Source of the DNA: Pleomorphomonas sp. PLEO
Lineage (GTDB): Bacteria; Pseudomonadota; Alphaproteobacteria; Rhizobiales; Pleomorphomonadaceae
DNA: 64,000 nt
Assembly: GCF_041320595.1 (NCBI RefSeq)
Contig: NZ_CP166625.1
Span: 4,338,001 to 4,402,000 of the forward strand
Reading direction: 5' to 3'
This document shows positions 10,866-58,445 of the stretch, one piece after another; positions within the stretch are counted from its first letter, which is position 1, and each line of letters begins with the position of its first letter. A program made the position numbers and the translations under genes. The notes beneath the pieces were generated by a model that made no database searches, had not been told where the DNA came from, and was given only the letters and a program-made list of their open reading frames with translations.

Positions 10866-10909
10866 GTTCTCTATATGTTCCAGTATAGAAGGGGCTTTGG
10901 AAGAGTCAA
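10866..10909 (-). promoter_or_regulatory. SOS promoter of imuA-imuB-dnaE2 with LexA box
   Basis: Read on the minus strand there is a -35 TTGACT (10909-10904), a 16-base spacer, a -10 TATACT (10887-10882) and, two bases later, GAACATATAGAGAAC (10880-10866). That is GAAC-N7-GAAC, a perfect match to the alphaproteobacterial LexA direct repeat. LexA bound over the transcription start would repress the operon until DNA damage. The imuA start is 28 bases further on. Confidence 0.92.
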
Positions 10910-33410: not shown

Positions 33411-34646
33411 TCAGGCCCCGACAGTCGGGCGTCGGATGCGGCTATCCGCGCGTCCAGCGTTGGTGAAATCATCCCTCACCACGCGGCCATCCTTCAAGAT
33501 GAACCGGTGGTTGACCTTGTCGGCCACCGCCATGATGTCGTCGAGCGGGTTGCCCTCGACGACCAGCAGATCGGCGGCAAAGCCTTGCCTGAGGCGCCCG
33601 CGATCATCGAGCCGAAGCAGATCGGCAGCCGTTGCCGTCGCGGCCGTCAGGGCGTGGATGGATTTCATGCCGGCGCCAACCATGTGAGCCAATTCCCAGG
33701 CGGCGTTGCCGTGCGGATTGAACGGCGTTCCGGTGTCAGCGCCCATGGCGATGCGGCCGCCGGCATCGTAGTAGGCCTTGAAGGATCGCCGATGGTGTTC
33801 CGATGCCCAACGCGCCTTTTCCATCGCCCATTCGGGCACACCGCCGACGTTGCTCGCGAGCATGCAATGAAAGGGCATAAGCGTCGGGACCAGCACGACG
33901 CCGCGCAGCAACATCTCGTCGATGCACTGTTGATCGAGCATTATGCCATGTTCGATGGAATCGACGCCGGCCCGCACCGCGTTGAGTATGCCCGCCGGCG
34001 TCATGGCATGCGCGGCGCTAGGACGATCGAAACGGCGCGCTTCGCCAACGGCGGCCGTCATCTCCTCGCAGGTGAACTGGGCGTGCTCCAGCCGAACTCC
34101 AGGCGTCAGCACGCCGCCGGTGGCCATCAGCTTGACGCAGTCGCAGCCGGCATGAATTTGCTCTCGCACGGCTTTGATCATCTCGGCCGGGCCATCCGCC
34201 TGGCGGGCTATGAAATAATTGGTCCCACCGGTCATGCAGATGAACTTGCCGGCGGCTCGAATGGTCGGCCCGAACATCCGGCCGGAATTGAACGCGTCGC
34301 GAACGCGCAGCTCGACATGGTCGACGCCGCCGAGATCGCGCATGGACGTTATTCCGCCGGCCAACGACGCTGTGGCATTCTCCAGGCAACGCAACGTCAG
34401 CTCGACATGGGAGATACCGGCCAAAACCGCCGAGGGATTCAGTTCGCCGCCGAGCACGAGATGAGCATGGCAGTCGATAAGGCCAGGCAGGACGGTCATG
34501 CCCCCGGCATCCACCGTACGACCTACGTAGCCGGCGAAGGCGGCGACAGGCGCAATGTGGGCGATACGGCCATCCTCGACCAGAATCGCATGACCGGCCG
34601 GCAGCAGAGCCTCGCCGTCGAAGATGGAACCGTTGACGAGGAGCAT
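33411..34646 (-). CDS. Metal-dependent amidohydrolase family protein
   Basis: A 411-residue amidohydrolase with the metal-binding HxH in GLIDCHAHLVLGG, the Lys of KLMATGGVLTPG, DSIEHGIMLDQQC and AMGADTGTPFNPHGN. The pattern fits the imidazolonepropionase-like/prolidase-type subgroup that cleaves small amides or dipeptides. The real substrate is unknown. The ATG at 34646 gives the family start MLLVNGSIFDGE. The frame upstream to 34706 is unlike it. It converges tail to tail on the Lrp gene with no gap. Confidence 0.87.
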   Translation of the reverse strand: MLLVNGSIFDGEALLPAGHAILVEDGRIAHIAPVAAFAGYVGRTVDAGGMTVLPGLIDCHAHLVLGGELNPSAVLAGISHVELTLRCLENATASLAGGITSMRDLGGVDHVELRVRDAFNSGRMFGPTIRAAGKFICMTGGTNYFIARQADGPAEMIKAVREQIHAGCDCVKLMATGGVLTPGVRLEHAQFTCEEMTAAVGEARRFDRPSAAHAMTPAGILNAVRAGVDSIEHGIMLDQQCIDEMLLRGVVLVPTLMPFHCMLASNVGGVPEWAMEKARWASEHHRRSFKAYYDAGGRIAMGADTGTPFNPHGNAAWELAHMVGAGMKSIHALTAATATAADLLRLDDRGRLRQGFAADLLVVEGNPLDDIMAVADKVNHRFILKDGRVVRDDFTNAGRADSRIRRPTVGA

Positions 34647-38941: not shown

Positions 38942-39637
38942 ATGCCTCGTACCGCTTCCTCCCCCTCCCACGATCTTCTTTCGGGCCTTATCGTCGAAGC
39001 CTGCGACCGTCGCATGGAAGAAGATTTCGCTCGCCGCTGGGGCGGCCCCGTCGCTGGGGTGGACGAGGTCGGCCGTGGCCCCTTGGCCGGCCCGGTGGTG
39101 ACCGCGGCGGTGATTCTCACCGACGCACCACTGCCCGAGGGGCTAACCGATTCAAAGCAACTTCGCCCCAGTGTGCGCGAACAAATGTTCGAAGCCATCT
39201 GTCGCGATCATATCGTCGCCGTTGCCTCGGCGTCGGCGGCGCGCATCGATTCCATGAATATTCTGGCCGCCAATCTATGGGCGATGAACCGGGCGGTACG
39301 GTCGCTGGCCGAACAGCCGGTGGGCGTGCTCGTCGACGGACGGGATGTGCCCGCGGCGCTGCTTGCCGCCGGCTATCGGGGCGCCGCCATCGTCAAGGGC
39401 GATGCTCGCGTCGCCGCCATCGCCGCCGCTTCTGTCGTCGCCAAGGTGATGCGCGACCGCATGATGGAACTCCATGCCGACGCGTTTCCCGGCTACGGCT
39501 TCGAAACCAACGTCGGCTACGGCTCGGCCAAACATCTGAGGGCGCTCACCGAACTGGGGCCGACGCCCATCCATCGACGCAGCTTCCGGCCGGTCCGGGA
39601 ATGCATCGAAGCGCGGGCGGGTTGCAGGCAGCCATGA
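38942..39637 (+). CDS. rnhB: Ribonuclease HII
   Basis: A 231-residue RNase HII that nicks RNA of RNA/DNA hybrids and single ribonucleotides in DNA. The catalytic DEDD set is visible as GVDEVGRGPLAGPV near residue 39, VLVDGRDVP and YRGAAIVKGDARVAAIAAAS with its aspartate. The C-terminus YGFETNVGYGSAKHLRAL is typical. A short N-terminal extension (about 20 residues, SSPSHDLLSG) precedes the core. It is convergent with the F0 ATP synthase operon across a short terminator. Confidence 0.93.
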   Translation: MPRTASSPSHDLLSGLIVEACDRRMEEDFARRWGGPVAGVDEVGRGPLAGPVVTAAVILTDAPLPEGLTDSKQLRPSVREQMFEAICRDHIVAVASASAARIDSMNILAANLWAMNRAVRSLAEQPVGVLVDGRDVPAALLAAGYRGAAIVKGDARVAAIAAASVVAKVMRDRMMELHADAFPGYGFETNVGYGSAKHLRALTELGPTPIHRRSFRPVRECIEARAGCRQP

Positions 39638-49069: not shown

Positions 49070-50370
<1,301 letters not shown>

Positions 50371-51019: not shown

Positions 51020-51721
51020 TCAGACCCGACGGCCCGTGAGCCCGGCGACCACACCGATGGGAAGGCGAATGGCGAGCAGCAGGCCCGCCAAAGCGCCGAG
51101 GGCGCCGCCACCGGCGATCGTCGCATCCTGGCCGTCGGCAATCACCCGCACCACGGGAGTCCTCAGGCGAACGAGGCGACGGTGTCCGGCACGGCGGATG
51201 AGATCGATGCCGGCTAGGCCGTCGCGCCGGCTGAAACCGCCGAGTTCGCGGAAGTAGCCGCGCGAGATGATCATGCCCTGGTCGGGATGCGTTACACCGG
51301 CACAACGGCCGAACAGGCGCAGCAGATAGTGCTTCAGGCCGCCGCCGAGCGTATCGTCGTCGGAAGCGAGGCGGAAGACAGCCACGAAACGGCTGTCACC
51401 ATGCCTAAGACGCCGCTCGGCGGTCGCCTGGAAATCGCTCTCCCAGCCTGGATCGAGTAGGACCCCCGGGCGCAGGAACATCAGGAATTCACCGCGCTGG
51501 GCAGCGGCCGCTCCAATGGCGCAACGCGCCCAGGCGCCCCCCGCGGCGGAAATGAGATCGCAGCCGGTCCCCTCCGCGACGAGACGCGTCTGATCCTCCG
51601 AGCCGCCGTCGACCACGACGACTTCGCGCACCGTTCCGTCGGCGGCGCCGGTGACCAGCGTCGACAGCGTGCGGACGAGGGCTTCCTCGCTGTTCCGGGT
51701 GGGTATGACAACCGAGATCAT
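51020..51721 (-). CDS. Family 2 glycosyltransferase
   Basis: A 233-residue GT-A protein with ISVVIPTRNSEEALVRTLSTL at the N-terminus, the VVVDGGSEDQT acidic motif (DxD-like Asp) near residue 36 and GEFLMFLRPGVLLDPGW. It lacks a clear membrane anchor, except a weakly hydrophobic C-terminus (GALGALAGLLLAIRLPIGVVAG). The acceptor is unknown. It is divergent from the radical SAM gene with a 264-base gap. Confidence 0.82.
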   Translation of the reverse strand: MISVVIPTRNSEEALVRTLSTLVTGAADGTVREVVVVDGGSEDQTRLVAEGTGCDLISAAGGAWARCAIGAAAAQRGEFLMFLRPGVLLDPGWESDFQATAERRLRHGDSRFVAVFRLASDDDTLGGGLKHYLLRLFGRCAGVTHPDQGMIISRGYFRELGGFSRRDGLAGIDLIRRAGHRRLVRLRTPVVRVIADGQDATIAGGGALGALAGLLLAIRLPIGVVAGLTGRRV

Positions 51722-51947
51722 ACTTTCGTTCTAGCGGGTTTTCCCAGGAAGCGCGAGCCCGTCCGAACGCGGACAAACAATCGCCCGACGACCATCGCAC
51801 GCCCTTCCCAACCTCGACCTTCGGCACGCTTCGGTCATCTCATCTTCGCTGTTTTGCGAGGCCGCCATCCGACGCATAACGCCTATACCACCACCCAGCC
51901 GACGCCCCTTTTCGAGAGCCAATCCGCTAGTGGTCGAACTCAACAAT

Positions 51948-51979
51948 GTTCTTGACCTGTTCTCATTTTCACCTAAGAT
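51948..51979 (+). promoter_or_regulatory. LexA box and promoter of the radical SAM gene
   Basis: GTTCTTGACCTGTTC (51948-51962) is a perfect GTTC-N7-GTTC LexA box. A -35 TTGACC (51952-51957) lies inside it and, 16 bases on, a -10-like TAAGAT (51974-51979). Transcription would start about seven bases later, at the A of the ATG at 51986. No Shine-Dalgarno sequence is present, so the mRNA is predicted leaderless and SOS-controlled. Confidence 0.75.
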
Positions 51980-51985
51980 CAAATC

Positions 51986-53113
51986 ATGAACATCGCATGT
52001 CGCAACCTCGAAGAGCCCATCCCGGCGCCTGAGATCGCCGACACAGCGGTCACGGCCGGACGCCGGCGCGGCCGAGGCGCCGGAATCAACCCTTCGGGCC
52101 GGTTCGAGGCTTATGCCCGCACCACCTTCGACGACGGTTGGAGCGACAGCGAGGAACTGCCGCCGTTCAAGACGACAGTACAGGTCGAACCGGCGCGTTC
52201 AGTCATCACCCGCAACGACAGTCCGGACATCGCCTTCGATCGTTCGCTCAACCCCTACCGTGGTTGCGAGCATGGTTGCGTCTACTGCTATGCCCGACCA
52301 AACCACGCCTATCTCGGCTTGTCGCCGGGACTCGACTTCGAGACCCACCTCTATGCCAAGACCAACGCCGCCGAAGTGCTGGACCGCCAGCTCGGTGCGC
52401 CGTCCTACCAGCCGAAGGTGATCGCCATCGGTACGGCTACCGACGCCTACCAGCCGATCGAGAAGGAGCAGAAGATCACCCGGCGCGTGCTGGAAGTCCT
52501 GGCGAAGACCCAACACCCGGCACTGATCATCACCAAATCGGCGCTGGTCCTGCGCGATATCGACATTCTCCAGACGATGGCCGCCCAAGGGCTGGTCAAG
52601 GTGGCTATTTCCATCACGACGCTCGATCGCCGGCTGGCGCGCGCCATGGAGCCGCGCGCCTCCAGCCCACAGCGACGCCTCGAAGCAATCCAGAAACTTA
52701 CGGAAGCCGGCATTCCAGTCGGCGTCATGATGGCGCCGATCATTCCGGCGGTCACCGACAGCGAGATCGAGCGCATTCTGGAGGCTGCCCACACCTTCGG
52801 CGCTCGCGAGGCCGGCTACGTGCTGCTACGCCTGCCGCTCGAGGTGTCGGAAATCTTCCGCGAATTCCTTCTGCGCGAGCTGCCCGACCGTTATCGGCAC
52901 GTCATGAACGTGCTGAAGTCGATGCGCGGCGGCAAGGACTACGACGCGGAATGGGGCAAGCGCATGCGCGGCACCGGCCCCTACGCTTGGCAGATAGGCC
53001 GGAGGTTCGAGCTGACCACCAAGCGCCTCGGTCTCAACAAGCATAAGGTCAAGCTCGACACGGAAAAGTTCCTGAAACCCGGCAATGGCGGCGTCCAGCT
53101 TAGTTTGTTCTAA
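51986..53113 (+). CDS. PA0069-family radical SAM protein (SplB-like)
   Basis: A 375-residue radical SAM enzyme. The cluster motif C-x3-C-x2-C is at 94, 98 and 101 (RGCEHGCVYCYARP), preceded by ITRNDSPDIAFDRSLNP and followed by the TIM-barrel SAM regions (AIGTATDAYQPIEKEQKITR, ISITTLDRRLARAMEPR). The family is related to spore photoproduct lyase and to Rv2578c, but its reaction is not established. The N-terminus has a basic RRRGRGAG segment. A LexA box and leaderless promoter precede it, which suggests an SOS-induced repair or nucleotide-related role. That function is inference. Confidence 0.9.
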   Translation: MNIACRNLEEPIPAPEIADTAVTAGRRRGRGAGINPSGRFEAYARTTFDDGWSDSEELPPFKTTVQVEPARSVITRNDSPDIAFDRSLNPYRGCEHGCVYCYARPNHAYLGLSPGLDFETHLYAKTNAAEVLDRQLGAPSYQPKVIAIGTATDAYQPIEKEQKITRRVLEVLAKTQHPALIITKSALVLRDIDILQTMAAQGLVKVAISITTLDRRLARAMEPRASSPQRRLEAIQKLTEAGIPVGVMMAPIIPAVTDSEIERILEAAHTFGAREAGYVLLRLPLEVSEIFREFLLRELPDRYRHVMNVLKSMRGGKDYDAEWGKRMRGTGPYAWQIGRRFELTTKRLGLNKHKVKLDTEKFLKPGNGGVQLSLF

Positions 53114-53114
53114 A

Positions 53115-53129
53115 GAACAAATAACGAAC
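53115..53129. promoter_or_regulatory. LexA-like box after the radical SAM gene
   Basis: GAACAAATAACGAAC is GAAC-N7-GAAC, the reverse orientation of the LexA repeat, two bases after the radical SAM stop codon. It overlaps a short inverted repeat GTTCTAAAGAAC (53107-53118). No start codon of a clear gene lies just downstream on either strand, so its target is unknown and chance is possible. Confidence 0.35.
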
Positions 53130-53181
53130 AAACGCTATAGGATGTCGAGGAATACCATCCCCCCAAGGAGCGTCAAGGAAG

Positions 53182-53349
53182 CTACGGTTCGGGTTGCCAG
53201 ATCGAGCGCCCCTCGCACTCGGCCGTCATGAAGCGCCAAAGACCAGAATGCTCGACGCACCCTTTGGGGCTGAGGCGCGTTCCAACGTAGACGATCCATG
53301 TACCCACAAACAGGACAAGAACAAGCAGCAGCCAGTCTCTCGTTCGCAT
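53182..53349 (-). CDS. Small membrane protein, 55 residues
   Basis: I do not recognise a family. From the ATG at 53349 the protein has one membrane helix (WLLLVLVLFVGTWIVYVGTRL) and a C-terminal tail with two cysteines (GCVEHSGLWRFMTAECEGRS) that could be disulfide-bonded outside the cytoplasm. The composition is protein-like rather than a shadow frame. The upstream GGAACGCG is a weak ribosome site. An upstream start at 53388 would add 13 residues. It lies alone, converging on the radical SAM gene. Confidence 0.5.
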   Translation of the reverse strand: MRTRDWLLLVLVLFVGTWIVYVGTRLSPKGCVEHSGLWRFMTAECEGRSIWQPEP

Positions 53350-53558
53350 CGCGTTCCGGAAGCTTTCTTTGGCAGGCGACAACGGCAAATTGGAAAAGGC
53401 TTTGCAGAGCCTGCAACGCTGCTTTCAAGATGGCGCCAATACGAAACCAGTTCAACCTGCCGGTTTCCGTTCAGGGCGCCGCCGTTTTCTTCTCCCTTGA
53501 CGTCTCCTCGTTCCAACGACACTTCTGAAGCCTGATCGAAGGATGGCGGGAGACAAGG

Positions 53559-53990
53559 ATGAAGCTCTTCGGCGGTGGTGCGAAATTCGCCTGGAAGGAC
53601 CTGAAAGCGCCGGAGCTCGACGACTTCGAGGCCATGGCAGCCGAAGCCTATGCCGCGCTTCCGGCCGATTTCCGGGCGCTGACCGGCGAAATCGAGATCC
53701 GCGTGGCCGACTTTCCCGATGAGGACGTCGTCAAGGAAATGGAGCTCGAGAGCGATTTTGACATTCTCGGCCTGTTTGTCGGTACCGGTCTTGCCCACGA
53801 CGCCGCGGTGCCGGAGACAGGTCGCCTGCCCAACCGCATCTGGCTCTATCGTCGCCCCATTCTCGACTATTGGGCCGAGCATGAGGAGACGCTTGGCGAC
53901 ATCGTCAGCCATGTGCTCGTTCATGAGATCGGCCACCATTTTGGCCTGAGCGACGACGACATAGATGACATCGAGGACAACGAGCCATGA
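53559..53990 (+). CDS. Metallopeptidase-family protein (zincin-like)
   Basis: A 143-residue protein of the MMP-like minimal zincin group (formerly DUF1025). The zinc motif HEIGHHFGL is at 122-130 (His122, Glu123, His126), followed by an acidic tail DDDIDDIEDN. There is no signal peptide. The substrate is unknown. GGGAG lies before the ATG. Its stop overlaps the start of the next MBL hydrolase by four bases (ATGA). Confidence 0.87.
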   Translation: MKLFGGGAKFAWKDLKAPELDDFEAMAAEAYAALPADFRALTGEIEIRVADFPDEDVVKEMELESDFDILGLFVGTGLAHDAAVPETGRLPNRIWLYRRPILDYWAEHEETLGDIVSHVLVHEIGHHFGLSDDDIDDIEDNEP

Positions 53991-57726: not shown

Positions 57727-58254
57727 TCAGAACGGGATGTCGTCGTCGAGGTCGGACGAGAAGTTGGAGGCCGGAGCGCCGCCACCCTGGGGACGCCCAC
57801 CGCCCGACGACTTGGCAGGAGCGCGTTCCATCGGGCCGGAGGAGCCGTAATCCGAACCGGCATCGCCAAAATCGCCCTCGCCGCGGCCACCACCTTCGCC
57901 GCCACGACTGTCGAGAATGGTCAGTTCGCCACGGAAGCGCTGCAGCACCACTTCCGTGGAATAGCGCTCTTGGCCGGACTGGTCAGTCCACTTGCGGGTC
58001 TGAAGCTGCCCCTCGATGTAAACCTTGGAGCCCTTCTTCAGGTACTGCTCGGCGACCTTGGCCAGATTTTCGTTGAAGATCACCACCGAGTGCCACTCGG
58101 TGCGTTCCTTGCGCTCGCCGCTCTGACGGTCGCGCCAGTTTTCGGAGGTCGCGATACGCAGGTTGACCACGGCATCGCCCGACCCCATCCGCCGCACCTC
58201 GGGATCACGTCCGAGATTGCCGATCAGGATGACCTTGTTGACGCTGCCTGCCAT
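57727..58254 (-). CDS. ssb: Single-stranded DNA-binding protein
   Basis: This 175-residue SSB has the OB fold in its first 110 residues ([51 protein letters not shown]), a Gly/Pro-rich linker and the acidic tip DDDIPF that binds partner proteins. It protects ssDNA in replication and repair. It is divergent from uvrA with a shared region that contains a LexA box. Confidence 0.96.
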
Positions 58255-58430: not shown

Positions 58431-58445
58431 GTTCCTGATACGTTC
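58431..58445. promoter_or_regulatory. LexA box between ssb and uvrA
   Basis: GTTCCTGATACGTTC is GTTC-N7-GTTC, the alphaproteobacterial LexA repeat. It lies 177 bases from the ssb start and 243 bases from the uvrA start in the 433-base divergent region. uvrA and ssb are classical SOS genes. Clear -35/-10 elements could not be fixed. Confidence 0.75.

Follow-up and report, generated by a model that had tools for sequence, protein, structure and literature searches.

A radical SAM gene of Pleomorphomonas appears to combine control by LexA, a leaderless start and a product tail of the type that docks on the beta sliding clamp. The best reading of this combination, which we regard as probable if some way short of certain, is that of a radical SAM enzyme which is induced by damage, docks on the clamp and acts on DNA. 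The gene is located in the window, by which we mean the whole stretch of 64,000 nucleotides analysed here, and the genome carrying it consists of a single contig of 5.48 Mb; among named relatives, Pleomorphomonas sp. NRK KF1 is the closest at this gene (95% identity). On the forward strand a perfect GTTC-N7-GTTC LexA box (GTTCTTGACCTGTTC, 51948–51962) includes the -35 hexamer TTGACC (51952–51957), followed 16 nucleotides later by the -10 hexamer TAAGAT (51974–51979), and this TTGACC-16-TAAGAT element (51952–51979) is the sole promoter-like site in a scan of 51700–53600, with 0.3 expected in shuffled sequences. Six bases lie between the end of the -10 hexamer at 51979 and the ATG at 51986, the predicted leaderless start of a PA0069-family protein of 375 amino acids (51986–53113, forward strand). 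As the -10 hexamer holds a TAA in the same frame, no start codon is possible further upstream, and the match to the family model begins at residue 28 of the protein. The earlier note on this DNA had described the same overlap of box and -35 element with a -10 element just before the ATG, and the scan agrees with it.

Taken alone the motif would be weak evidence, its credibility coming from conservation in relatives: the window holds six GTTC-N7-GTTC matches against 1.8 expected, with at least six in 2 of 100 shuffles, and the genome as a whole shows no excess (147 matches versus 141 for the reversed pattern). It had been argued that boxes at other SOS genes of the window raise trust in the motif. 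These boxes do exist, one at 10866–10880 upstream of an ImuA-like ORF and one at 58431–58445 between ssb (57727–58254, reverse strand) and uvrA; the ImuA-like ORF reaches 34.6 bits, under its cut-off of 150.

For the comparison within the order we used 91 loci, namely the window locus and 90 among the matches listed (the best 30 and 60 picked by hand across families), and in 89 of them the 300 nt before the aligned region contain a perfect box; L029 has its perfect box beyond 300 nt and L081 carries one in reverse orientation only. Twelve of 13 additional loci of the order have it as well. Among 68 loci from other alphaproteobacterial orders (27 of the best 30 matches, 40 picked by hand and L303, with L101, L113 and L123 left out as order loci or repeats) a perfect box is present in 60 and missing in eight. 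Control patterns of similar make-up or spacing matched in 0–5 of the 91 and 0–1 of the 68 loci. A named set (L129–L208) overlaps with the order set (L131/L017, L132/L011, L172/L016) and its counts are kept separate; there the box is found in all 79 loci with enough upstream DNA (of 80), the ATG discussed below in 49 of these 79 and the clamp-type tail in 80 of 80. Loss of the box in close relatives, one of the outcomes by which the earlier note would have seen its prediction refuted, is not what we found. As yardsticks we took recA and uvrA of the same order, for which a perfect box in either orientation is present in 18 of 28 recA and 15 of 29 uvrA loci, after leaving out those that could not be anchored (2 of 30 for recA and 1 of 30 for uvrA). 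This test, covering both orientations and the 450 nt that precede a point within the gene, is more generous than the one applied to the PA0069 gene (300 nt, single orientation), and the PA0069 gene is boxed more consistently than either of them.

Outside the Alphaproteobacteria the gene seems to be coupled to other LexA motifs. The 39 loci from other classes of the phylum come from genomes over the family cut-off, and their assignment to beta- or gammaproteobacteria is itself inferred from the LexA motif. The alphaproteobacterial box occurs in 0 of the 39, and 28 carry CTGT-N8-ACAG upstream, which we take to be the LexA motif of beta- and gammaproteobacteria and unrelated to the alphaproteobacterial box; the corresponding control pattern is found in none and 11 loci are without a perfect box. 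Four actinobacterial relatives, the best four rows of the search and all on plasmid records, were also compared. A perfect GAAC-N4-GTTC is present in two of them, and a third agrees with TCGAAC-N4-GTTCGA, presumably the actinobacterial LexA-type motif, at 11 of 12 positions, which gives a LexA-type box in three of four; the fourth shows neither the perfect motif nor a near match. LexA would thus probably bind at the box of the PA0069 gene.

The regulation as such is a known prediction. LexA control of splB homologues was predicted in 2012 for alpha- and betaproteobacteria (PMC3323433), and from the accessible part of that article its splB is the same kind of gene with the same regulatory prediction as ours; its section on splB mentions neither a leaderless start nor a clamp motif nor RNase HII and assumes an SPL-like photorepair, SPL being spore photoproduct lyase. 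SplB-like radical SAM genes, whose products may belong to the PA0069 family, have also been linked to ImuB-C and SRAP genes and placed in the SOS network by their neighbourhood (PMC3765255). A published experiment on this PA0069 gene was not found. As far as the literature searched shows, what is new is the conserved module with its predicted leaderless start, together with the clamp-type tag, the absence of a donor cysteine and RNase HII as a neighbour.

The predicted leaderless start is well supported by comparison. An in-frame ATG follows 37–41 nt after the start of the box in 99 of the 149 boxed alphaproteobacterial loci (57 of 89 in the order and 42 of 60 in other orders), with offsets peaking at 38, 39 and 40, and two further boxed loci have a GTG in its place. 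TTG is present at the -35 position of the box in 112 of the 149 loci, and T-A-N3-T at the positions tested in 89 of them versus 197 of 6522 control windows. If the ATG is allowed at 36–42 nt, 103 loci qualify, 75 of them with the full T-A-N3-T, and here the gap between hexamer and ATG is 6 nt in 58 and 7 nt in 13 (71 of 75), which suggests that the position of the ATG tracks the -10 element rather than the box. The base preceding the ATG is a C in 68, 76 and 89% of the loci at offsets 38, 39 and 40, as would be fitting if transcription began with the A of this codon, and Shine-Dalgarno-like 4-mers occur in 9 of 97 such ATG loci versus 22 of 42 boxed loci with other starts. Since the offset of the ATG has a standard deviation of 0.7–0.8 nt and its distance to a conserved motif varies by 16–17 residues (51 and 40 loci), the position of the start seems to be set by the promoter and not by the protein. 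Among the yardstick genes no start at such an offset was found for uvrA (0 of 29 loci), and for recA there is a single case in 28, a GTG at +40 of the box (L329) that we take as spurious. The arrangement is not universal: 50 of the 149 boxed loci are without an ATG at +37 to +41, some of them with a later start preceded by a Shine-Dalgarno-like sequence and several retaining a -10-like element with a later start, and in the 13 additional loci of the order the ATG is found in seven. In the loci of other classes the start is mostly 30–38 nt after the start of the box and the -10 element seems to be located within or next to the box, which would leave these genes with short leaders. Looking at the actinobacterial relatives L395, L396 and L388 by eye, we noticed a -10-like TNNAAT about 6–7 nt before the start codon, and the leaderless arrangement may recur there. 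Taken together, box, ATG offset and -10 spacing are conserved in a way that favours the LexA-repressed, leaderless transcript proposed in the earlier note. Among the papers listed by a literature search, none joins leaderless transcription, LexA and Alphaproteobacteria for this gene.

Over its full length the protein is a member of the PA0069 family (NCBIfam NF033668, rSAM_PA0069), scoring 551.3 bits against a cut-off of 360 over positions 1–348 of the 348 of the model and showing no difference from the family. The model is of the type ‘hypoth_equivalog’ and gives no function, and of 199 genomes sampled from the order, 169 hold a family member above the cut-off, as does one of the 14 control genomes. 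Membership in the radical SAM superfamily follows from PF04055 (71.1 bits), the cluster motif and the fold matches. The motif C94-x3-C98-x2-C101 (codons 52265–52288, forward strand) is invariant in 61 of 61 aligned sequences, and its three cysteines are presumably the ligands of the 4Fe-4S cluster; both the family assignment and the intact motif had been recognised from the sequence before. The Rv2578c family (NF038135) is related, with the window protein at 218 bits and under the cut-off of 430, and the one actinobacterial relative that was scanned lies over this cut-off.

In the AlphaFold2 model of the protein (mean pLDDT 87.4) the radical SAM barrel resembles that of SPL, and SPL entries make up the six best fold matches in the PDB (E 1e-9 to 3e-8), the best with E 1e-9, TM 0.53 and 16% identity. 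SPL (TIGR04070, PDB 4fhc) also shares the C-x3-C-x2-C motif. A profile–profile comparison gave P 3.7e-8 over part of the barrel, and two SPL-like proteins from the class (L365 and L366) served as bridges to the SPL sequence. The protein might accordingly be a spore-photoproduct-type lyase reversing thymine photoproducts, for example in dried DNA. Photorepair has been proposed for the LexA-regulated splB (PMC3323433), and according to the accessible part of a further article an SPL-family gene is induced by UV-C in a non-spore-former and dried DNA is argued to be able to form the spore photoproduct (PMC12029717). Yet the protein reaches 31.4 bits with the SPL model TIGR04070 (cut-off 400) and 25.3 bits with the Pfam model PF20903, just short of the cut-off of 27, and SPL was not among the matches up to E 1 when the PDB sequences were searched with the profile of the family, SkfB and NifB being among those obtained. 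The hydrogen donor of SPL is Cys140/141, and Cys140 is located within FEAACTSD of the SPL chain (4fhc). Across 61 PA0069 sequences the ligands of the cluster are the only cysteines that are conserved. About where SPL has Cys140 the family seems to have the invariant Gly149 (codon 52430–52432, forward strand; Gly in 61 of 61), as judged from the order of strands rather than from a firm alignment, the profile–profile alignment placing Cys140 unreliably. We thus doubt an SPL-type donor because no cysteine outside the cluster is conserved and not because of the alignment of Cys140. With the clamp-type tail and the SOS box as further differences from SPL, SPL chemistry is doubtful for this protein, and the SPL-like photolesion repair that the earlier note had in mind is not borne out; we consider such a lyase unlikely, even as the best placed of the alternatives. 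SPL works without light, so ‘photoreactivation’ would be the wrong word anyway.

At its end the protein reads GGVQLSLF-stop, and QLSLF (residues 371–375, codons 53096–53110, forward strand), a peptide of the QLxLF type formed by the last five residues, corresponds to the full consensus of the docking peptide of the beta sliding clamp, which according to the accessible text of PMC4549789 is often C-terminal and was tested with an alphaproteobacterial clamp. Q371 and L374 are invariant in the 61 aligned members. Within the last 12 residues Qxx[LMI][FLI] is present in 88 of 91 proteins of the order, 59 of 68 from other alphaproteobacterial orders and 37 of 39 from other classes (184 of 198); it makes up the C-terminal five residues themselves in 79, 47 and 33 of them, respectively (159 of 198). 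The same motif is found in 8 of 931 neighbouring ORFs, some of which are not genes, within the last 12 residues and in 0 of 931 as the last five. The strict form QL[SD]LF is restricted to 42 of 91, 12 of 68 and 0 of 39 proteins of the three sets. The clamp-type tail is present in all 13 additional loci of the order. Exceptions to the five-residue form include the six-residue tails QLTLGL, QIALPF, QLGLPI, QMALDL and QMGLDF, a form that we take to be the second clamp motif. The actinobacterial relatives end in QESLF, QEPLF, QLRLL or QLTLL (4 of 4), and a relative from Gemmatimonadota ends in QLSLGI. No clamp-type tail was seen in the other radical SAM proteins compared (two mobile-pair-B proteins, one unassigned, one each from Priestia and Staphylococcus and two SPL-like proteins).

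From this tail we infer binding to the clamp. The gene could nevertheless be LexA-controlled with a QLSLF tail that is no clamp ligand, since a clamp-type motif is short and a tail could serve another purpose: the motif has a length of only five residues, distant relatives show degenerate forms of it, and variants such as QLSLL, QGSLF and QMALL may bind the clamp weakly. We think this slightly less probable than a lyase of the SPL type, as the consensus is exact and complete in the window protein and a tail of this type is kept in nearly all members and in every actinobacterial relative. The confidence of the model also drops to 77 for residues 361–370 and to 57 for the last five, which would suit a loose tether. 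Searching titles and the beginnings of abstracts for sliding clamp together with radical SAM, we found no paper on the PA0069 family.

A clamp-docked enzyme might also modify a protein at the clamp, be it a polymerase, DnaN or another partner, instead of DNA. Many radical SAM enzymes have peptide substrates, and the best sequence-profile match in the PDB is the peptide maturase SkfB (E 6.5e-4). Against this stand the nearest fold by structure, which is a DNA enzyme, and the surroundings of a relative on a Staphylococcus saprophyticus plasmid (L392), where the radical SAM gene lies between genes for a 2OG-Fe(II) oxygenase and for proteins annotated as DNA glycosylase and Ada-domain protein. This neighbourhood looks like an alkylation-repair cluster and hints at DNA repair for the wider group, and we hold a protein substrate to be improbable.

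In Alphaproteobacteria the PA0069 gene has a neighbour of its own. Downstream of it, in the same orientation, there is a gene with the RNase HII motif in 127 of 151 loci with 1.5-kb flanks (18 of 27 of those from other orders), within 400 nt of the PA0069 stop in 92 of the 151; these long-flank loci were drawn from L009–L038, L099–L208 and L249–L263, a collection that includes the named set and is partly redundant. All ten downstream ORFs that were scanned belong to PF01351, and the upstream control gave 0 of 150. In another 101 alphaproteobacterial loci, for which the downstream sequence covers only about 400 nt, the RNase HII motif is seen in 41. A divergent glycosyltransferase-like ORF precedes the PA0069 gene in 107 of the 151 loci. 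That the protein is a partner of RNase HII, acting on ribonucleotides or sugar damage left by SOS polymerases, is the least probable of the readings, since conserved gene order can be passive, the rnhB of the Pleomorphomonas window is not adjacent to the gene (about 13 kb away, near 39053) and RNase HII is found within about 500 nt downstream in 0 of 39 loci of other classes. A role in defence was dropped, the two PADLOC matches both being below 20 bits, and no phage record covers 80% of the PA0069 protein.

The unrelated types of LexA box, the clamp-type tail and the RNase HII neighbour all speak for the role in DNA damage suggested in the earlier note, and for the damage-induced, clamp-docked enzyme acting on DNA we propose the following model. 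In the undamaged cell LexA on the box over the -35 element would block RNA polymerase. After damage LexA would be cleaved and transcription would begin from or beside the A of the start codon, so that the mRNA would be leaderless. Its product, a radical SAM protein with one cluster, would use the C-terminal QLSLF to dock on the sliding clamp DnaN, the platform common to translesion polymerases and mismatch repair. Its substrate would probably be damaged DNA at forks that are stalled or have just been replicated, with the 5'-deoxyadenosyl radical driving a reaction that differs from the one known for SPL. It is conceivable, even if we lean slightly against it, that this amounts to an unrecognised form of SOS repair, in which clamp-docked radical chemistry acts at forks on a lesion other than that of SPL and is kept, under LexA motifs unrelated to one another, in Alphaproteobacteria, other classes of Pseudomonadota and Actinomycetota. 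Were DNA repair at forks true, this would be to our knowledge the first clamp-tethered radical SAM repair enzyme. A widespread family without an assigned function thereby gains specific, testable features in its clamp-type tag, its LexA boxes and the geometry of its promoter, and the gene provides a natural model for SOS genes in which the start codon coincides with the predicted transcription start.

Some further sites of the window deserve mention. Directly after the PA0069 stop codon a second perfect box lies on the reverse strand (53115–53129, GAAC-N7-GAAC on the forward strand). We considered it as a second SOS or antisense promoter and rejected this, taking it as chance: counting loci of all sets with at least 60 nt after the stop, duplicates included, any perfect box at this place was found in 1 of 255 other alphaproteobacterial loci (L072, in the other orientation), and the stretch between the gene and a metallopeptidase in which it sits is missing from the close relatives L069 and L129. 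GTTC-N7-GTTC is also present at 53342–53356 and, inside a long ORF, at 34290–34304, both with G+C-rich spacers and both probably chance matches. Near the SOS gene, at 49070–50251 on the reverse strand, there is a CcrM-like adenine methyltransferase with 627 bits, under its cut-off of 830.
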